A stretch of DNA of 33,506 nucleotides from contig NZ_SMMC01000188.1 in the NCBI RefSeq assembly GCF_009711445.1, positions 1 through 33,506 of the forward strand, given 5' to 3'. Shown in pieces: positions 26,920 to 33,506 of the stretch (positions are counted from its first letter, which is position 1; each line of letters starts with the position of its first letter). Position numbers and translations under genes: made by a program. Under the pieces are notes generated by a model. That model saw only the letters and a list, made by a program, of their open reading frames with translations. It did not search any database and was not told the origin of the DNA. The DNA is from Curvivirga aplysinae. Lineage in GTDB: Bacteria > Pseudomonadota > Alphaproteobacteria > UBA8366 > Aestuariispiraceae.

Positions 26920-27984
26920 CTATCTATGGTCTGCACCCACAGCTTGGCCTACATTTTCAAACCCGTCTTTTGACAAACACTCAGATAACTCACGCTTAAT
27001 CCGTGGAATTAGGCTTGGTCCATGATAAACAAGTGCAGAATATAGCTGAACTAAAGAGGCGCCCGCTCTAATTTTTCGATATGCATCTTGCCCTGATGCA
27101 ACACCACCAACGCCAATCAACGGAATCTTTCCGCCTGTACGCTTATAAACATCTGCTAACACATCGGTAGAAAGCTCCATCAATGGCTTACCGCTCAATC
27201 CACCTGTTTCTTCTGCCGTTTTCTTGTCTTTCAAAGAGTCAGGCCGCGATATGGTTGTGTTGGAAACAATCAACCCATCAATGTTCATATCAAGCGTAAG
27301 ACTCGCAATATCACTCAAATCATCACTATTCAAATCCGGCGCAATTTTCACTAGCAATGGTGGCTTTCGCTTCTCTCCCATTGCTTTATCACGTGCTTCT
27401 AAAGTAGCTATAACCAGATTGGCCAGTTCATCTTTATCCTGCAAAGCACGCAGGCCCGGTGTATTTGGTGATGAAACATTAATCACCAGATAATCCGCAA
27501 ATGGGGAAAGCTTTTCTGCACCAACCGCATAGTCCGACGCAGCGTCTTCTGTTGTTTTGTTTTTCCCCAGATTAACGCCAACAATACCGCTACTATAACG
27601 ATGAGCCAGATTCTTGGCCGCGACATGCATTCCTTTATTATTAAAGCCCAAACGATTAATAACGCCGCCATCTTTTGGCAAACGGAAAATACGTGGCTTC
27701 GGATTTCCATCTTGCGCCTTTGGGGTAATAGATCCCACTTCAACGAAACCAAGTCCCGTATCTAACATAGCATCGGCAACTTCTGCATTTTTATCGAACC
27801 CGGCTGATAATCCGATAGGGCTTGGGAAATACATATCCCAGACCTTAGTCACTAAACGTCCGTCTTCATCTGCAAATGCCTTTGGCCCCAATCCCGCCTT
27901 TAAAGCAGCCAATGTCATATTATGTGCCTTTTCAGGGTCAAGGCAGCGTAAAAAGGGTAAGGCGAAATCAGCTAATACAGACAT
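26920..27984 (-). CDS. pyrD: Dihydroorotate dehydrogenase (quinone), class 2
   Basis: A 354-residue FMN flavoprotein oxidising dihydroorotate to orotate in pyrimidine synthesis, with electrons passed to quinone. Class 2 is shown by the N-terminal membrane-associating helices (LADFALPFLRCLDPEKAHNM) and the catalytic Ser in INVSSPNTPGLR. FMN contacts GLSAGFDKNAE, GFVEVGSITP, VKIAPDL, VSNTTI and GVGGVASG are all present. Length is typical. DUF952 lies directly upstream, a frequent neighbour in this lineage, with a 28-base gap. Confidence 0.96.
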   Translation of the reverse strand: MSVLADFALPFLRCLDPEKAHNMTLAALKAGLGPKAFADEDGRLVTKVWDMYFPSPIGLSAGFDKNAEVADAMLDTGLGFVEVGSITPKAQDGNPKPRIFRLPKDGGVINRLGFNNKGMHVAAKNLAHRYSSGIVGVNLGKNKTTEDAASDYAVGAEKLSPFADYLVINVSSPNTPGLRALQDKDELANLVIATLEARDKAMGEKRKPPLLVKIAPDLNSDDLSDIASLTLDMNIDGLIVSNTTISRPDSLKDKKTAEETGGLSGKPLMELSTDVLADVYKRTGGKIPLIGVGGVASGQDAYRKIRAGASLVQLYSALVYHGPSLIPRIKRELSECLSKDGFENVGQAVGADHR

Positions 27985-28012: not shown

Positions 28013-28357
28013 TTAATCTTCCATTTCGGGAAAAACATGAAGCCCCTGATCATCAAGAGCAAGAGGCGTTGCCCAAATCACAGCCTCTAGCGGCAATTCA
28101 CCATAAAGATGAGGAAATAAAGAACCACCACGAGATTCTTCCCATTTCAGTTCATCACCCAACATGCCTTCATCCACCGCAAGAAGGACTAGATCGGGAT
28201 TACCCGCTTTATGTACCGCAGCAGATTTTATAATTTGCTCTTTATTCGAGAAATGAAGAAAGCCATCACTTAAATCTTCTTCACGACCTGCATAAACACC
28301 TTCTTCAGCTTGTTTTATCCAGCAAGATTTGTCCGCCAGATGATAGATCGTTGCCAT
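28013..28357 (-). CDS. DUF952 family protein
   Basis: A 114-residue soluble protein recognised as DUF952 by its opening IYHLADKSCW, the core DGFLHFSNKEQI with conserved Asp, His and Ser, and the C-terminal FPHLYGELPLEAVIWATPL. The fold is thought to be related to ADP-ribosyltransferase-like small domains, but no activity is established to my knowledge. It is immediately upstream of pyrD, probably one transcript. Confidence 0.9.
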   Translation of the reverse strand: MATIYHLADKSCWIKQAEEGVYAGREEDLSDGFLHFSNKEQIIKSAAVHKAGNPDLVLLAVDEGMLGDELKWEESRGGSLFPHLYGELPLEAVIWATPLALDDQGLHVFPEMED

Positions 28358-28433: not shown

Positions 28434-29471
28434 CTATATTTCTGAAACCAACCACTTTGTCATATCTACCGCTGAAATCTCTTTACAACCTGTTGTATTT
28501 TGCCCCGCCCAAAGAGAGGAAAAATCATGAATACCTTGTTCTTCAGCGGCTGTTTTTAATGGGCCAATAAGCCCGCCAGCAAGTGGAAATTCAGGAGCTA
28601 AGTCACTGATAGGGCCAAGTTCACGCATCAATCTATTCACAATACCGCGGGCAGGCCGTCCTGAAAATAGGTTCGTAAGGGCTGTATGTTGAGCATCGCT
28701 AGATTTAAGCGCCTTCCTATGCAAGAAGGTGGTACTCGCCTCATCACAAAGCATATAACTTGTCCCAACTTGCAACATATCTGCGCCAAGTTCCAACATT
28801 GCTTTCACCTCTCTAGGCGATGCAATCCCGCCTGCAGCAATAACTGGTAGGTCTATTGCTTGTTTTATTTGAGGGAGTAAAGAAAAAATACCAAGTTGTT
28901 TGGAGATATCATCTGACAAAAAATGTCCACGGTGACCGCCGGCTTCCAAGCCTTGCGCAATCACCGCATCCACACCTTGATCCGACAAAACAATAGCTTC
29001 TTCAACTGTGGTGGCCGAAGATAGAATTCGCGCGCCCCAAGACCGAGCTCTTTGTAACAACTCAGATGAAGGCAGACCGAAATGAAAACTAACAACTTCG
29101 GGTTTAAACTTTTCCAAGACATCAGCCATCTCGCTGCTGAAAGGCGCACGGCCGGGCCCTGCTTTCACTTCCGCTGAATTTAGACCGACTTCTTGGAAAT
29201 ATGGCGCAAGCGTTTCCCGCCATTTAACATCACGACTTGCATTAGGAGCAGGGTCTTCATGAGCAAAAAAATTCACATTAATTGGTTTAGAAGTAGCAGT
29301 ATTGATAGTTACCAATTCTTCTTCCAATTTTTCAGCATTCAACATTGCACAAGGAAGCGACCCAAGAACACCAGTTTCGCTACATGCAATCGCCATAGCA
29401 CTTCCTTGTATTCCTGCCATGGGAGCTTGTATCAAAGGATATGAAAGGCCTAAGCTTTTATAAAATGACAT
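28434..29471 (-). CDS. Nitronate monooxygenase (2-nitropropane dioxygenase family)
   Basis: A 345-residue FMN-dependent TIM-barrel enzyme that detoxifies alkyl nitronates such as propionate-3-nitronate. Family signatures: PLIQAPMAGIQG near the N-terminus, VSFHFGLP with the catalytic-type His, VIAQGLEAGGHRG binding the FMN phosphate, LPVIAAGGIA, and GADMLQVGTSYMLCDEA. Length is usual for class I enzymes. It is the last host-type gene before the phage block, 69 bases from the holin stop. No broken end or duplication shows here. Confidence 0.92.
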   Translation of the reverse strand: MSFYKSLGLSYPLIQAPMAGIQGSAMAIACSETGVLGSLPCAMLNAEKLEEELVTINTATSKPINVNFFAHEDPAPNASRDVKWRETLAPYFQEVGLNSAEVKAGPGRAPFSSEMADVLEKFKPEVVSFHFGLPSSELLQRARSWGARILSSATTVEEAIVLSDQGVDAVIAQGLEAGGHRGHFLSDDISKQLGIFSLLPQIKQAIDLPVIAAGGIASPREVKAMLELGADMLQVGTSYMLCDEASTTFLHRKALKSSDAQHTALTNLFSGRPARGIVNRLMRELGPISDLAPEFPLAGGLIGPLKTAAEEQGIHDFSSLWAGQNTTGCKEISAVDMTKWLVSEI

Positions 29472-29540: not shown

Positions 29541-29921
29541 TTATTTATCTTTCCAAAGACTTATTCCTTTTTCAGCACCTCGGCTGACGATGTAGCCACC
29601 GACGCCGATTTTTAATAGTTCCCATAGATGGTCGGGCATGACAACTGAAGCGACACCAAAAACCGGGGCGATTACATAGTTATGAGCCACGATATATCCA
29701 AACAACACCATCAACATAGGTCGCCAGTTTCGTTGTAACCAACTTTCACCTTTTGCCTCGGCAATTACGACGGAAGCCGCAGCTTTTTCAATATCTGCTG
29801 CATGAGACAGAAGTGCGGTTTCTAATTCCAACCTTACTTTATCTCTTTCAACTTGATCGGGTATCACCCGATCCAAAACACCTCCTATCAAAGGAGTTAA
29901 GGCCGATAGTAACGGAATCAT
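29541..29921 (-). CDS. Three-TM phage holin (GTA_holin_3TM-like)
   Basis: A 126-residue protein of the holin family first noted in gene transfer agents and common in alphaproteobacterial phages. The N-terminus (MIPLLSALTPLIGGVLDRVIPD) forms one hydrophobic helix. After a charged helix comes WLQRNWRPMLMVLFGYIVA, a second membrane segment, and near the end KIGVGGYIVSRGAEK, a third. It would permeabilise the inner membrane so that the hydrolase encoded just upstream reaches the wall. The last gene of the phage block on this side. Confidence 0.88.
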   Translation of the reverse strand: MIPLLSALTPLIGGVLDRVIPDQVERDKVRLELETALLSHAADIEKAAASVVIAEAKGESWLQRNWRPMLMVLFGYIVAHNYVIAPVFGVASVVMPDHLWELLKIGVGGYIVSRGAEKGISLWKDK

Positions 29922-29932
29922 AATGCCATCTC

Positions 29933-30388
29933 CTAACCAATATTTTTATAAAATTTATGATGACCAATTTCTGCAATTGGAGTACGCCCCTTGGCCCACC
30001 ATGGTAATATTTGAGCGGCATGATAGTGGGTAGCTCCATTTGTACGATCCACTAAAGAGCCACGTAAGGCACGCTTGGCGATGCGTTTAGCAGATGCAAA
30101 AGCTTTGTCTTCTTCGTTGACCTCTAACATCTTCGATAGATTAGGATCTTCTTTATTCCAACATGAAAACTGATAAGGCTTTTTACACACATCAATCACA
30201 TCATTCCCCCACCAATGCCCGCCACGCGCCTGAGATTTAATAACTCGGTTCATAATACAGGAGGCAACAGCTTCCATTCCTGGAAGTTTCTCACCACGTG
30301 CTTCCCCCCAAATCGTGCGCGCCAGTATATTAACCTCTTCAAAGCTTAAAATTTTTATCGATTTTGATCTCATTGATTTACAAAGCAT
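29933..30388 (-). CDS. Phage cell wall hydrolase (SleB / Hydrolase_2 type endolysin)
   Basis: A 151-residue muralytic enzyme. The SleB-type core begins at about residue 22 with ARTIWGEARGE, whose Glu29 fits the catalytic acid. GMEAVASCIMNRV follows, then the FSCWN segment and the C-terminal NGATHYHA that marks this family. No signal peptide is visible, so it depends on the holin downstream. Its ATG at 30388 directly abuts the stop of the preceding gene (TAA then ATG); an internal ATG six codons later is possible. Confidence 0.9.
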   Translation of the reverse strand: MLCKSMRSKSIKILSFEEVNILARTIWGEARGEKLPGMEAVASCIMNRVIKSQARGGHWWGNDVIDVCKKPYQFSCWNKEDPNLSKMLEVNEEDKAFASAKRIAKRALRGSLVDRTNGATHYHAAQILPWWAKGRTPIAEIGHHKFYKNIG

Positions 30389-30694
30389 TTATTTACCCTC
30401 CGCAGAATGATGAGTAAGCTTTGCTTCAATTCGCAATAAATGCCCTGTCAATCGACGTTCAACATCTTTCAAGTAAGAAATGGTTACATAACTTTTCGCG
30501 ACTTCTAACTTATACGCAGCTAAGCTTTCTCTTGCTTGCGCAATTGATACTGACACCCTTTGGTCCACTTCATCCAATCGATTATTCAATTCTTCTCGGC
30601 TTCGCCAGTTCATCCAAAATAGCGCTGCTAGTGCTGGTAATTCCACAGCCGTAATCCACCAGATAATATCTAGTCCCACAGAAGTTTCTTCCAT
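30389..30694 (-). CDS. Small phage membrane protein with coiled coil, lysis-cassette member
   Basis: A 101-residue protein with one N-terminal membrane segment (about 8-28, IIWWITAVELPALAALFWM) and a long amphipathic helix. The stretch SLAAYKLEVAKSYVTISYLKDVERRL resembles a conserved small protein of alphaproteobacterial prophages that sits beside a SleB hydrolase and holin. The topology would suit a spanin or holin partner, but function is unproven. AGGAAGG lies seven bases before the ATG. Between TerL and the hydrolase. Confidence 0.8.
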   Translation of the reverse strand: MEETSVGLDIIWWITAVELPALAALFWMNWRSREELNNRLDEVDQRVSVSIAQARESLAAYKLEVAKSYVTISYLKDVERRLTGHLLRIEAKLTHHSAEGK

Positions 30695-30706
30695 GATTTA
30701 ACCTTC

Positions 30707-32239
30707 CTAAATTTCAAATTGTGTTTGAGCCTGATGTTGCTGTCCGACGCCTTGCCAATGCCGTTGTTTATGTTTATGCGATTTGCTATTTGCCTCAAAC
30801 ATGTAACGATTTAAACGTACAGGCTCACTCAGAAGACAGCCTGCCACTGCGTCCAACCCATCATCGACACCAGTCCGATTTTGACCCGGCTTCCATTCGC
30901 GCATCTCTGTAATAAAAGGGCTTTGCCAGACCGATTGATGCGCTTTAAGCTGACCTGCAGCTAAAACAGCATCAAATGCTTCCATCAAACGCTTGTCTTT
31001 ATTGACCGTTGAATGATGTTCCAAAACTGCAGTTCTACATCCTTTTTCTCTAAAAATAGCTCTAAGTAACCCGGGCAAAAACTTGCCTATTCCGTTTGTT
31101 TCAATTGTCACACTTGGTAAATGCAACTCACGTACAAAATGAAAAACCTGATTGCATTGTTGACGTGCTTCATCCAATTCTGCGCTTACTTCTGTTCGAA
31201 GGTATTTTATGCGATGAAGCCAGTATCCGCCTTCTTCATCTGTATAAACGCATGCAATTACCGAATGATCACCCTTCACAGGGTTTCCATAAGATGGATC
31301 CCACCAACAGCTAGCAGAAATTAATCTTTGTTGCTTGAGCAACAAGATATCTTGACCGTTACTTTGCTGATATTTCAACTCGGCAGTATAGCTACCTAAC
31401 TTATCCAGATCCAAACGCCCTCCGTTGATACTAACGGGCTCTAACATCATTTGACTTCTATACTTATTTGGACCTTGTTTGCGCTTTAAGTTAGCAATAG
31501 TTGCTGGTCCAAACCTTTCAGGCCAATTTGATTCTCCAGTCTTATTACATACCGGGATTTTTAATCGCTTAAAGCCATTAAGAAATGGAAATTCTTCACC
31601 CGTTTCTTTCCGTGCGGCATCAGCATAAATCGTGAAAAAACTATGCGGTGTGCCGACAAAAAGTTGGGTTCCATCAGGGGTTAAAACGTAATCAATTTCC
31701 GATAATCTTTGACGCAGGTCTTCGCGCTTTCCAGCCGTGTCACATGTATTAGGTACTTCAACGTCGTCACATATAACCATATCCGCCCGACTACCAGTCA
31801 TATTTGACTGTATCCCCTTAGCCATCATTGAGGGGTCCCGTAACTCCATAGATCTATTCAATGTAAATCTGTCTGAAGCCCATTGATCTGCACGGCTTGG
31901 TTTAAGCCCTTGTGTTAGAGGATGACGTTCAACAATACGTTTTACATTCCGCACCATCTTAATCGCCAAAGCTTGCTCAGCAGCAAGAACCAAAATACGT
32001 AAGTTAGGATCAAGGTATAAAACCCAGGCACAGAATAATCCAATAATTGTCGATTTACCTGCCGCCCGAAATGCCATTAACAAAAGACGGGGATCTTTTT
32101 GTTTCCAGCGCCTATTCAGCCAATGCGCCATGCGACGATGAATACGAGGAGTCGTTTGTCCCTGAGTTTCATTCCAAATCCAGATAAATTCCGCAAATGT
32201 TATAGAGTTTCTTCTTTTAGAGGTGGAAGAGGTTTTCAT
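30707..32239 (-). CDS. Phage terminase large subunit, T7-like
   Basis: A 510-residue packaging motor. The ATPase part has the Walker A variant FRAAGKST at 57-64, in the style of T7 gp19, and Walker B MVICDDVE at 154-161. VGTPHSF near 195-201 fits the coupling motif. The nuclease part keeps likely metal ligands Asp314 (WWDPSYG), Glu380 (VTIETNG) and Asp459-Asp460 (VDDGLDAVAG). Both activities look intact. The ATG overlaps the stop of the upstream gene as TAATG. It faces the lysis genes, as in T7-like phages where the terminase closes the late region. Confidence 0.92.
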   Translation of the reverse strand: MKTSSTSKRRNSITFAEFIWIWNETQGQTTPRIHRRMAHWLNRRWKQKDPRLLLMAFRAAGKSTIIGLFCAWVLYLDPNLRILVLAAEQALAIKMVRNVKRIVERHPLTQGLKPSRADQWASDRFTLNRSMELRDPSMMAKGIQSNMTGSRADMVICDDVEVPNTCDTAGKREDLRQRLSEIDYVLTPDGTQLFVGTPHSFFTIYADAARKETGEEFPFLNGFKRLKIPVCNKTGESNWPERFGPATIANLKRKQGPNKYRSQMMLEPVSINGGRLDLDKLGSYTAELKYQQSNGQDILLLKQQRLISASCWWDPSYGNPVKGDHSVIACVYTDEEGGYWLHRIKYLRTEVSAELDEARQQCNQVFHFVRELHLPSVTIETNGIGKFLPGLLRAIFREKGCRTAVLEHHSTVNKDKRLMEAFDAVLAAGQLKAHQSVWQSPFITEMREWKPGQNRTGVDDGLDAVAGCLLSEPVRLNRYMFEANSKSHKHKQRHWQGVGQQHQAQTQFEI

Positions 32240-32622
32240 TAAACCTCTCCTCCAATTTCATCTCCTTCTTCGGGTAAGGCTTGAGACTCACCAACAGCCT
32301 GTTTTGCACGCTTAAGCATTAATGAAAGTTCATCATCATTTTCCACAGACTGACCAATTACATCAGGTTGAAGCATGACCGATTGAGCCAGCTTTAATAG
32401 TGCTTCCATATGCGTTAGTGCTGCTTTAGCTCCGCCTTGTTGGGCAGTAAATGCCCTCGGGTCCTCCGATGCAGGCTGGCCTGTAATCGTATCATATGCT
32501 TCTAAAGCTAAAGACAACATTTCTGGCAAGCGGCCAGCAAGGTGTATTTTCAATTCATCCGCACTTGATAAAACTGTGTCAGAAGCACTTAAGGACGACA
32601 TTTTATTTTTCTTCCGAGACAC
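32239..32622 (-). CDS. Phage small protein, terminase small subunit candidate
   Basis: About 127 residues if read from GTG at 32622, which has AGAGGA six bases upstream. An ATG seven codons later is possible, while the open frame to TTG at 32661 would overlap the previous gene. The basic N-terminus is followed by helices (HLAGRLPEMLSLALEAY; GGAKAALTHMEALLKLAQ) and an acidic tail ending EEGDEIGGEV. I do not recognise the family. Its place directly before TerL, with coupled stop and start, makes it a candidate small terminase. Confidence 0.7.
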   Translation of the reverse strand: MSRKKNKMSSLSASDTVLSSADELKIHLAGRLPEMLSLALEAYDTITGQPASEDPRAFTAQQGGAKAALTHMEALLKLAQSVMLQPDVIGQSVENDDELSLMLKRAKQAVGESQALPEEGDEIGGEV

Positions 32623-32651
32623 TATAATCCTCTTTTCAATTCGTGCTAAAC

Positions 32652-32987
32652 TTATCCCCAACAGATATCATCACGCCAATTGCGCGGCAGGTTTCCCTCT
32701 TCTGCTCTACGTTCCAATTCATTGGATATCTGTCGAATTGCATCAATTTGCTGCCATTCATTTTTCAACTCTATCCAAAGCTTTTTCTCAGATTTGGAGA
32801 GTTGACCTGCTTGCTTTAAATGCAACAAAAGCTGCAGCGCAGTCATAAGAATATTCCGTTGCTTAAACTCTGGAACTTTCTGCAAAATCCGACGTCTTGC
32901 TTCTTGCTGGATCTCAAATGTCAGCTGATCCAGAAGCCTTGCCTCTTTAAGCATAGCTTCTTCGGCCTTATTCAAAAATTCTCTCAT
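32652..32987 (-). CDS. Phage hypothetical protein, helical, 111 aa
   Basis: An almost entirely helical, charged protein (FLNKAEEAMLKEARLLDQLTF; LMTALQLLLHLKQAG; KKLWIELKNEWQQIDAI). It has no signal peptide or membrane segment. I do not recognise it. It lies two genes before TerL, so it is a second small-terminase or head-assembly candidate. The ATG has a weak ribosome-binding site (AAGTGA). A 29-base gap separates it from the next gene if that starts at 32622. Confidence 0.7.
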   Translation of the reverse strand: MREFLNKAEEAMLKEARLLDQLTFEIQQEARRRILQKVPEFKQRNILMTALQLLLHLKQAGQLSKSEKKLWIELKNEWQQIDAIRQISNELERRAEEGNLPRNWRDDICWG

Positions 32988-33009
32988 CTTATATTCACTT
33001 TTTGTTCCA

Positions 33010-33357
33010 TTAATTATTCATCAGAAAATCTAATGTAAGTAACTCTAATTCTTCTGGCGTCTCAGCTTCTTCAAGACGTATATCAGCAGGTAAATCACGA
33101 AGCTTCTGTTTTTGCAAAGTAATGCCTAAAGTTGTTTCTCCACTTTCCAACGCTTTCATAAAATCTGCATCTAATGTTCTAAAGAATGCTGAACGCTCTT
33201 CTCTCAGCTTTTCTCTGTGAATATGTCTGGCCTTGGACATATTTACTGTAATCACATCGCCTTCTAATTGCCACGCCTCTCGGAAAACACGGCGCTGTGG
33301 TTTTGGGATTGATGCACTTATCTGTTTTCCTGTAATTTGAATATAAGATTTTGTCAT
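33010..33357 (-). CDS. Phage tail-fibre-associated small protein
   Basis: A 115-residue protein. After a beta N-terminus (YIQITGKQISASIPKPQRRVFREAW) comes MSKARHIHREKLREERSAFFRTLDADFMKALESGE, here split into its halves, then KQKLRDLPAD and EEAETPEELE. This pattern (basic helix, L-D-x-x-F/Y-M-x-A-x-E, then K-Q-x-L-R-D) recurs in small proteins encoded right after tail fibre genes in many phages. The function is unknown. AGGAG lies about nine bases before the ATG. It suggests that tail genes lie beyond the right edge. Confidence 0.7.
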   Translation of the reverse strand: MTKSYIQITGKQISASIPKPQRRVFREAWQLEGDVITVNMSKARHIHREKLREERSAFFRTLDADFMKALESGETTLGITLQKQKLRDLPADIRLEEAETPEELELLTLDFLMNN

Positions 33358-33386
33358 CTTGCCGATCTCCTCATATTTCTGAGCAT
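33354..33386 (-). promoter_or_regulatory. Ten-codon upstream frame coupled to the tail-associated gene
   Basis: On the minus strand, AAGGAGG precedes ATG at 33386, which reads MLRNMRRSAR and stops at TGA overlapping the next ATG as ATGA. The Shine-Dalgarno is better than that of the following gene. It could be a coupling leader or a decoy. Evidence is layout only. Confidence 0.3.
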
Positions 33387-33445
33387 TTAATTAAGCCTCC
33401 TTCTCATTAACCAATATTAGTTCAATTTAAAATTTTAAGGAAAAA

Positions 33446-33506
33446 TCATAATTTCGGATATCTTTTCTTAACAATTTGACAAGCCTTAATGTATTCATCA
33501 ATTTGC
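33446..33506 (-). CDS. Possible 3' end of an upstream phage gene, partial
   Basis: The last 60 bases of the window read on the minus strand as QIDEYIKACQIVKKRYPKL followed by TGA at 33446-33448. A second open frame with stop further left is also possible, so the frame is uncertain. No product can be named. Confidence 0.3.
   Translation of the reverse strand, partial: QIDEYIKACQIVKKRYPKL

Follow-up and report, generated by a model that had tools for sequence, protein, structure and literature searches.

Among the Alphaproteobacteria, the described gene transfer agents (GTAs) that bear comparison with the element considered here are the RcGTA-like agents (Rhodogtaviriformidae), which include CcGTA of Caulobacter, and BaGTA of Bartonella (Bartogtaviriformidae). 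RcGTA-like agents are inherited virion genes that lie at several loci without phage replication or integration genes, and the RcGTA tail is of the siphovirus type. In a survey of 1,423 genomes, RcGTA-like clusters are confined to a clade of seven orders, with none in the Rhodospirillales (24 genomes), Azospirillales (13), Kiloniellales (5), Acetobacterales (62) or Rickettsiales (70) (PMC6821227; this and all other papers given by PMC number are cited from excerpts). Here we describe a stretch of 33,506 bases from Curvivirga aplysinae (hereafter the window), which is the whole of contig C203 in a 3.56-Mb assembly of 216 contigs. One end of it carries seven phage genes. We are nearly certain that these belong to an inherited, host-kept cluster of genes for a podoviral particle, and they probably form one half, that for packaging and lysis, of a GTA that derives from a T7-type podovirus and is passed on vertically.

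The cluster shares with RcGTA-like agents the inheritance, the dispersal over loci and the missing replication and integration genes, and with CcGTA a link to a regulatory gene of the size and domain make-up of RogA (see below). However, the gene families differ, since the present cluster includes a T7-type portal, scaffold, gp11, gp12, TerL (the large terminase subunit) and lysis genes. The RcGTA marker DUF2460 (PF09343) was found in none of 13 genomes, a set that did not include Azospirillum, while a Caulobacter control was positive. BaGTA, with a capacity of about 14 kb, is likewise alphaproteobacterial and not RcGTA-like, but it has an HK97-type capsid, is reported from Bartonella and is tied to run-off replication (PMC9662315); it is by this description that we set it apart.

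Two further systems bear comparison. FpGTA of Faecalibacterium (2026) is podovirus-like, is encoded by two operons (10.5 and 5.5 kb), packages 8.4-8.9 kb of host DNA per particle and has a small terminase subunit (TerS) without an obvious DNA-binding domain (PMC12946183), as is predicted for the putative TerS here. The phages of Azospirillum lipoferum and Azospirillum sp. B510, of about 10 kb, are held rather to be GTAs, and random host fragments are said to occur in the particles of A. lipoferum 4B (Boyer 2008, as cited in PMC3899980). B510 carries the present cluster, and a small head would suit DNA of about 10 kb. The differences are that FpGTA has a Gram-positive host and particles that have been demonstrated, and that the Azospirillum particles were reported without a settled gene set, whereas our cluster is known from its genes and is compared with FpGTA by description only. 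A literature search restricted to open-licence PMC papers found no T7-type GTA in these orders.

A T7-type virion set at two places

The phage block consists of seven minus-strand open reading frames (29541-33357) and reaches the end of the contig. It is incomplete in the window because the assembly cuts it, not for a biological reason. In order of transcription the genes encode a 115-residue protein (33010..33357), a 111-residue protein (32652..32987), a putative TerS (32239..32661), TerL (30707..32239), a small membrane/coiled-coil protein of family phrog_29007 (30389..30694), a SleB-type cell-wall hydrolase, or endolysin (29933..30388, PF07486), and a holin with three transmembrane segments (29541..29921, PF11351/phrog_3427). 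An initial annotation had given the same seven genes, running in one direction and in this order, and the open reading frames bear this out. Chance can be excluded, given conservation at 53-64% identity in relatives.

TerL matches phrog_38 at 1.4e-79, and the Pfam model of the T7 RNase-H-like domain at 0.0021, which is below that model's cut-off. When seven relatives are aligned, residues G61 K62 S63 T64, D158 D159 E161, D314, E380, D460 and D463 do not vary; the assignment of individual residues to motifs is presumed.

The remaining virion genes lie on two other contigs. The last 12 bases of the window (33495..33506) are identical to the first 12 of contig C95 (8,177 bases) in the same orientation, and an open reading frame on C95 runs into that end. 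C95 was found with a relative's gp12-like protein as query. Reading toward the window, it carries genes for the capsid (PF19821, 2.4e-81), an 89-residue protein, gp11 (phrog_394), gp12 (phrog_376), a gp14-like protein and fibres; the genes read included no gp15 or gp16. For gp12, gp14 and TerL the Pfam matches fall short of the curated cut-offs, and the PHROG matches of gp12 and TerL are strong. Extension to the right, the check proposed in the initial annotation, thus leads into further virion genes of the same element and not into a host region. The second contig, C177, encodes the portal (PF12236, 1.5e-121), a T7-type scaffold (PF05396, 5.9e-12), a Bbp19-like protein (PF25181) and a short protein resembling the scaffold's end. 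Here the portal group adjoins two further genes, one divergent and with an S24 domain, the other for a class-IV aminotransferase. In other words, the C. aplysinae genome carries a T7-type virion set at two places, and the proposal of T7-type (podoviral) packaging and lysis genes in a chromosome is supported by family models and extends to structural genes.

The small genes of the block are less easily named. The gene at 32239..32661, whose conserved part starts from the ATG at 32601, is called a putative TerS by position and conservation. Its PHROG match is phrog_31793, it is predicted to form a three-helix hairpin without a separate DNA-binding domain, and a fold search with it returned no match at E 0.001 or better. 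A TerS without such a domain has been described for known GTAs (PMC11841831). The predicted shape would nevertheless be weak support for a GTA, as T7-type small terminases may be alike. Family searches yielded no function for the 111- and 115-residue proteins: the former has no convincing family and was not found in the relatives compared, and the latter matches phrog_20196, of unknown function. The initial annotation had called the 115-residue protein tail-fibre-associated. This agrees with its place, relatives of it adjoining fibre-type genes in genome G001 and on contig C24, but has no other support.

Contig C24 was itself considered as the other half of the block on account of DNA similarity. 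It was set aside, as its terminase and portal are of other families (phrog_2 and phrog_156) and it appears to be a different prophage in the same genome. This prophage and the window block have lysis and fibre-end genes in common: the holins are 95% identical, and the prophage's endolysin, phrog_29007 protein and 115-residue protein are 45-53% identical. Read from these identities, there may have been recent exchange between the C24 phage and the inherited element.

One ancestral locus

TerL was matched at E < 1e-100 in 16 of 59 genomes searched (its own included), relatives being 55-64% identical. In nine relatives read, TerL lies 0-23 kb from pyrD or from a DUF952 gene; in G007 pyrD is outside the 27.6 kb read, and seven further loci are too short to tell. 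The same two host genes stand beside the block in the window, on the minus strand (DUF952, 28013..28357; pyrD, 26920..27984), as the ancestral right-hand flank of the cluster. The portal family was matched in all 16 genomes, with 13 matches of this type (311 bits or more) and three weaker ones (G003, G004 and G006). Of 12 loci read, 11 had its common neighbours, and only that of G004 did not.

Genomes G070 and G387 show what the arrangement once was. Here a single locus runs from the repressor gene (the S24-domain gene mentioned above) through c6 (described below), portal, scaffold, capsid, the 89-residue gene, gp11, gp12, TerS and TerL to the phrog_29007 protein, endolysin, DUF952 and pyrD. 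G244 has the same order, with the repressor just outside the stretch read. The ancestral locus was therefore repressor, then portal, scaffold, capsid, tail, terminase and lysis genes, then DUF952 and pyrD. In the window's family a break has parted the scaffold from the capsid. The half with the portal retained the repressor and the aminotransferase, and the capsid-TerL half stayed near DUF952-pyrD, inverted in some genomes. The halves are 1.23 Mb apart in G009, 0.23 Mb in G001 and 0.16 Mb in G216, a member of another family identified as Niveispirillum cyanobacteriorum by replicon identity. In G001 about 15 kb separates the capsid from DUF952. This stretch was considered as a phage region and rejected: six of nine proteins scanned match cellular families, including a tRNA pseudouridine synthase and homoserine succinyltransferase, three match nothing in Pfam, and none of the nine matches a structural PHROG.

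The site can also be seen without the cluster. Across a sample of 385 genomes drawn across the class, the repressor gene occurs in 113, among them 51 of the 57 with TerL, and it is divergent from the portal and within 3 kb of it in 42 of the 50 genomes that have both. Nine of the 62 genomes with repressor and no TerL were read, picked for good assembly. In eight of these the repressor is divergent to pyrD within about 4 kb, four times directly beside DUF952; the ninth (L239) has no pyrD within 11 kb. Hence the cluster occupies a gap between two genes that adjoin where the cluster is missing, an empty site, by which insertion and loss are indistinguishable.

Distribution, descent and selection

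In the class sample, TerL was present in 57 genomes, as a single match in 53; 59 genomes had a portal of this type, scoring 375 bits or more, and 55 had both. There were 26 additional, weaker portal matches. The co-occurrence has a hypergeometric probability of 3e-59, a value that ignores relatedness. Among the 56 genomes with TerL and any portal match, the two were on one contig in 37, of which 32 had them on the same strand and no more than 18.1 kb apart. When named genomes were scanned, 506 relatives were obtained, and the best 80 of them include Magnetospirillum, Paramagnetospirillum, Telmatospirillum, Terasakiella, Magnetovibrio, Caenispirillum, Skermanella, Defluviicoccus, Roseospira, Rhodovibrio, Marivibrio, Pacificispira and others. 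In the Azospirillaceae, 68 of 82 genomes have TerL. Azospirillum itself is complete in this respect, with TerL in 45 of 45 genomes (one partial, one in two pieces) and the portal in 45 of 45. One of these, G443, matches NC_013857.1 at 100% identity over 20 kb and is thereby Azospirillum sp. B510, in which the portal is at 0.20 Mb and TerL at 2.82 Mb of a 3.31-Mb replicon. The genes for portal, capsid, gp11 and gp12 are found on G443:C1 at about 199-201 kb and 2.82-2.83 Mb.

Do these genes share a history? Distances of TerL correlate with those of the portal (r 0.76, n=45), gp12 (0.79, n=99), capsid (0.67, n=78) and pyrD (0.56, n=31). Portal and capsid follow pyrD in turn (0.79 and 0.85, n=24 each), and the portal also follows the aminotransferase (0.73, n=17). 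None of these values was reached in 2000 permutations. In a FastTree tree of TerL (131 rows, three short rows left out), 11 phage or viral rows stand apart (support 85), and most rows fall together with others of their genus or family. There are meeting long branches, however, and Niveispirillum is not joined with Azospirillum. By the distances and this tree, the cluster appears to have been co-inherited with the host at a fixed place.

The genes are also constrained. Ratios of nonsynonymous to synonymous change (dN/dS; Nei-Gojobori, medians over close pairs, which are not independent) are 0.21 for TerL (202 pairs), 0.17 for the portal (19), 0.17 for the capsid (139), 0.13 for gp12 (34), 0.16 for gp11 (54), 0.14 for the scaffold (12), 0.20 for the 89-residue gene (59), 0.14 for the phrog_29007 protein (46), 0.165 for the endolysin (11), 0.16 for TerS (12) and 0.11 for the holin (3). 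The host flanks give 0.18 (pyrD, 14 pairs) and 0.16 (DUF952, 9 pairs). These eleven cluster genes (0.11-0.21) are thus under purifying selection like pyrD.

The genes at the lysis end of the block differ in how widely they were found. Among 134 rows compared, relatives of the phrog_29007 protein were present in 93 and of the endolysin in 79, and a holin of the PF11351/phrog_3427 type in just 14; the holin is 76% identical in G001. Between holin and DUF952 the window has a further gene (28434-29471), presumably nitronate-monooxygenase-like, to judge from its sequence, without a relative in the 82 loci compared.

The repressor

The gene divergent from the portal is of the LexA/S24 type. The serine of the S24 motif, whose role is assumed here, is missing in five of nine aligned repressors, that of the window's own genome included. 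Key residues are likewise reported missing in RogA, which controls the Caulobacter GTA, has 213 amino acids with helix-turn-helix and S24-like domains, and has the operator GGAA-N4-TTCC (PMC9632790). The size and domains of our repressor are as given for RogA. It would repress the portal operon.

The exact RogA operator was absent from all 36 upstream regions of the repressor. The shorter form GAA-N4-TTCC, picked, like GA-N5-TTCCTA, after inspecting the sequences, is present there in 15 of 36 genomes, against 0.48 expected and a maximum of 4 over 1000 shuffles, and in none of 26 regions before DUF952 or 19 before the aminotransferase. The dyad GA-N5-TTCCTA lies 48 bases before the repressor start in 10 of the 12 genomes having it, for example L213 (B510). 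The CtrA pattern TTAA-N7-TTAA was found before the repressor once in 36 (0.36 expected), which is no enrichment. A promoter motif common to both split loci was sought, and none was found.

TTCCTA also precedes the repressor gene in six of the nine genomes read that lack TerL. On the other side, many genomes hold a further gene between the repressor and c6. The latter (L078:11998-12396 and relatives) lies upstream of the portal and encodes 120-170 residues with conserved RHC and CVE-KR motifs. It has no convincing Pfam or PHROG family, and is perhaps an unrecognised virion or processing protein.

How such an agent might work

The cluster shows what is general to GTAs, namely virion and packaging genes of viral origin in a host genome, at a fixed place and under purifying selection, and the families of a T7-type virion module (portal, scaffold, capsid, gp11, gp12, gp14 and TerL) are present. 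Packaging of host DNA is inferred because the whole set is conserved, the loci are split and particles have been reported from A. lipoferum and B510; transfer of that DNA would follow. In such a scheme, release of the repressor, probably in few cells and under stress, would lead to expression of both loci. Scaffold and capsid would assemble a small head on the portal, and TerL, with a small subunit that has no evident DNA-binding domain, would load this head with pieces of the host chromosome. The short tail would be made of gp11, gp12 and fibres. Finally, holin and endolysin would lyse the cell, and the particle would inject host DNA into relatives. The parts are so far apart in the window's family and in many Azospirillum genomes that one head could not hold the whole set, which fits a transfer that serves the host and not selfish spread.

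Alternative explanations

The initial annotation had left three possibilities for the block: a working prophage, a satellite or a domesticated particle. A prophage or satellite on C203 was dropped after capsid, tail and portal had been found elsewhere and the place had proved to be fixed in relatives. A satellite of the phage-inducible chromosomal island (PICI) kind is further contradicted by the presence of the virion set in the genome, by the distance of integrases and by the mostly single copies. A broader form of the prophage reading is that a family of temperate T7-type podophages has repeatedly integrated beside pyrD, with the window as the end of one such prophage. Phages of the required kind do exist. 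Alcaligenes phage Piluca has, like the cluster, a TerS-TerL pair, portal, holin and endolysin, and its TerL is 29% identical; unlike the cluster, its single genome of 35 kb also encodes integrase, repressor/Cro, recombination and replication functions. Other podovirus-type portals also occur in these hosts, as in G003, G004 and G006 and in the 26 weaker matches of the class scan. However, 12 of 13 genomes have no integrase-family gene within 20 kb of TerL or portal, and in the other, G240, one lies 8.7 kb from TerL; no integration genes of its own adjoin the cluster in the genomes tested, and no replication genes were seen in the gene content read, to which model searches were not applied. Instead of lying in one piece beside an integrase, the genes are split between distant loci, and yet each half retains its old flank. 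There is mostly one copy, the locus has an empty site, and distances follow pyrD. The best-ranked phage TerLs are 28-30% identical, against the 55-64% among hosts; all 2,614 matching phage records are below 60%, and copies in a plasmid collection reach 32%. The best named phage portal is 34.6% identical, and an unannotated 5-kb faecal record 46.9%. Among 15 IMG/VR loci, L046 and L047 (59-60%) each have scaffold, capsid, tail, TerL and endolysin genes and might be thought viral genomes, but they fall inside the window's family in the TerL tree and are taken as host fragments filed as viral. Repeated integration is therefore very improbable, and the domesticated particle is the possibility that the split, mostly single-copy, fixed locus favours. 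The initial annotation had also named a grouping of TerL with headful or GTA terminases as a sign against its reading. On this the evidence is partial: TerL is of the phrog_38 kind and the RcGTA marker is absent from 13 of 13 genomes, in a tree built without RcGTA and BaGTA terminases the former stands apart from 11 phage and viral rows.

A domesticated particle might still move no DNA. It could be a headed killing particle, or serve lysis only, in competition among kin as PBSX-like particles do. The lysis genes belong to the cluster, and the fibre genes differ in number and length among relatives, as one might expect of such a weapon. Purifying selection on portal, scaffold, capsid, TerL and putative TerS points the other way, as a plain tail particle would not need them, and we consider this explanation unlikely, if deserving of some attention. 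To the last explanation, that an old prophage is decaying here and its remains now have no function, we give almost no credence. Losses, interrupted portals and stop codons do occur in some lineages, but most of the class sample has open reading frames, and median dN/dS values of 0.11-0.21 against 0.18 for pyrD have already refuted decay for most lineages.

Several observations nevertheless count against an inherited GTA. Particle, packaged DNA and transfer are predictions for these genes, and co-inheritance was judged without a host species tree. The distances of TerL show no agreement with those of the aminotransferase (r 0.14, n=19; 266 of 2000 permutations as high) and a weak one with those of the repressor (r 0.30, n=37; 9 of 2000), and pyrD and the aminotransferase themselves give only r 0.36 (n=16; 54 of 2000). 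Before the capsid operons of split genomes GAA-N4-TTCC is not enriched (1 of 14; 0.38 expected). One genus of the Azospirillaceae has lost TerL (0 of 7 genomes), the portal is interrupted in 5 of 45 Azospirillum genomes, the TerL match has in-frame stops in 4 of 57 genomes, and the portal match has them in several. In B510 our queries detected no relatives of endolysin, holin, TerS or fibres and found a second, weaker portal match, and earlier authors assigned the B510 particles, from gene order, to other prophage region(s) (PMC3899980).

Some of these cases have features of their own. The portal inserts, in G093, G427, G438, G460 and G464, are about 15-46 kb long, and four are near the same codon. 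In G093 (L181, from about 5.4 kb on) the insert encodes a terminase of the GpA type, a lambda-type portal and a tyrosine integrase, and it has DUF927 genes as well. The portal gene of the cluster may thus serve some small phage or capsid-forming satellite as a site of attachment. The TerL stops are found in small genomes (G242, G333, G410 and G322) and reflect either pseudogenes or another genetic code. In G110, G229 and G399, genomes of about 0.9 Mb from one genus, the TerL match is in two pieces about 3.4 kb apart, which is either a split terminase or decay.

Implications

Beyond the probable GTA in the window's family, a wider proposal can be made, although only tentatively, as we think it somewhat less likely to be right than wrong. 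A T7-type podovirus would have been captured once, early in the class, at a place beside a RogA-type repressor and pyrD, founding a separate, class-old GTA lineage. This would be the GTA of deep orders (Rhodospirillales, Azospirillales and small-genome lineages) and would make the particles of about 10 kb in Azospirillum, and the same repressor family would now control the unrelated RcGTA-type agent in Caulobacter. The cluster supplies a concrete gene list for the reported Azospirillum particles. For genomes such as those of Magnetospirillum, Azospirillum and Skermanella, some regions called prophages may have to be revised.

Few GTAs are known, and the formally classed alphaproteobacterial ones represent two other viral origins (PMC9662315). 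The present cluster, if a GTA, would be one more capture, podoviral and independent of these, in orders that were surveyed without finding an RcGTA-like cluster (PMC6821227). Under the wider proposal, one cellular switch would have served two GTAs of different viral origin; a GTA repressor family may have outlasted the agent that it first controlled.

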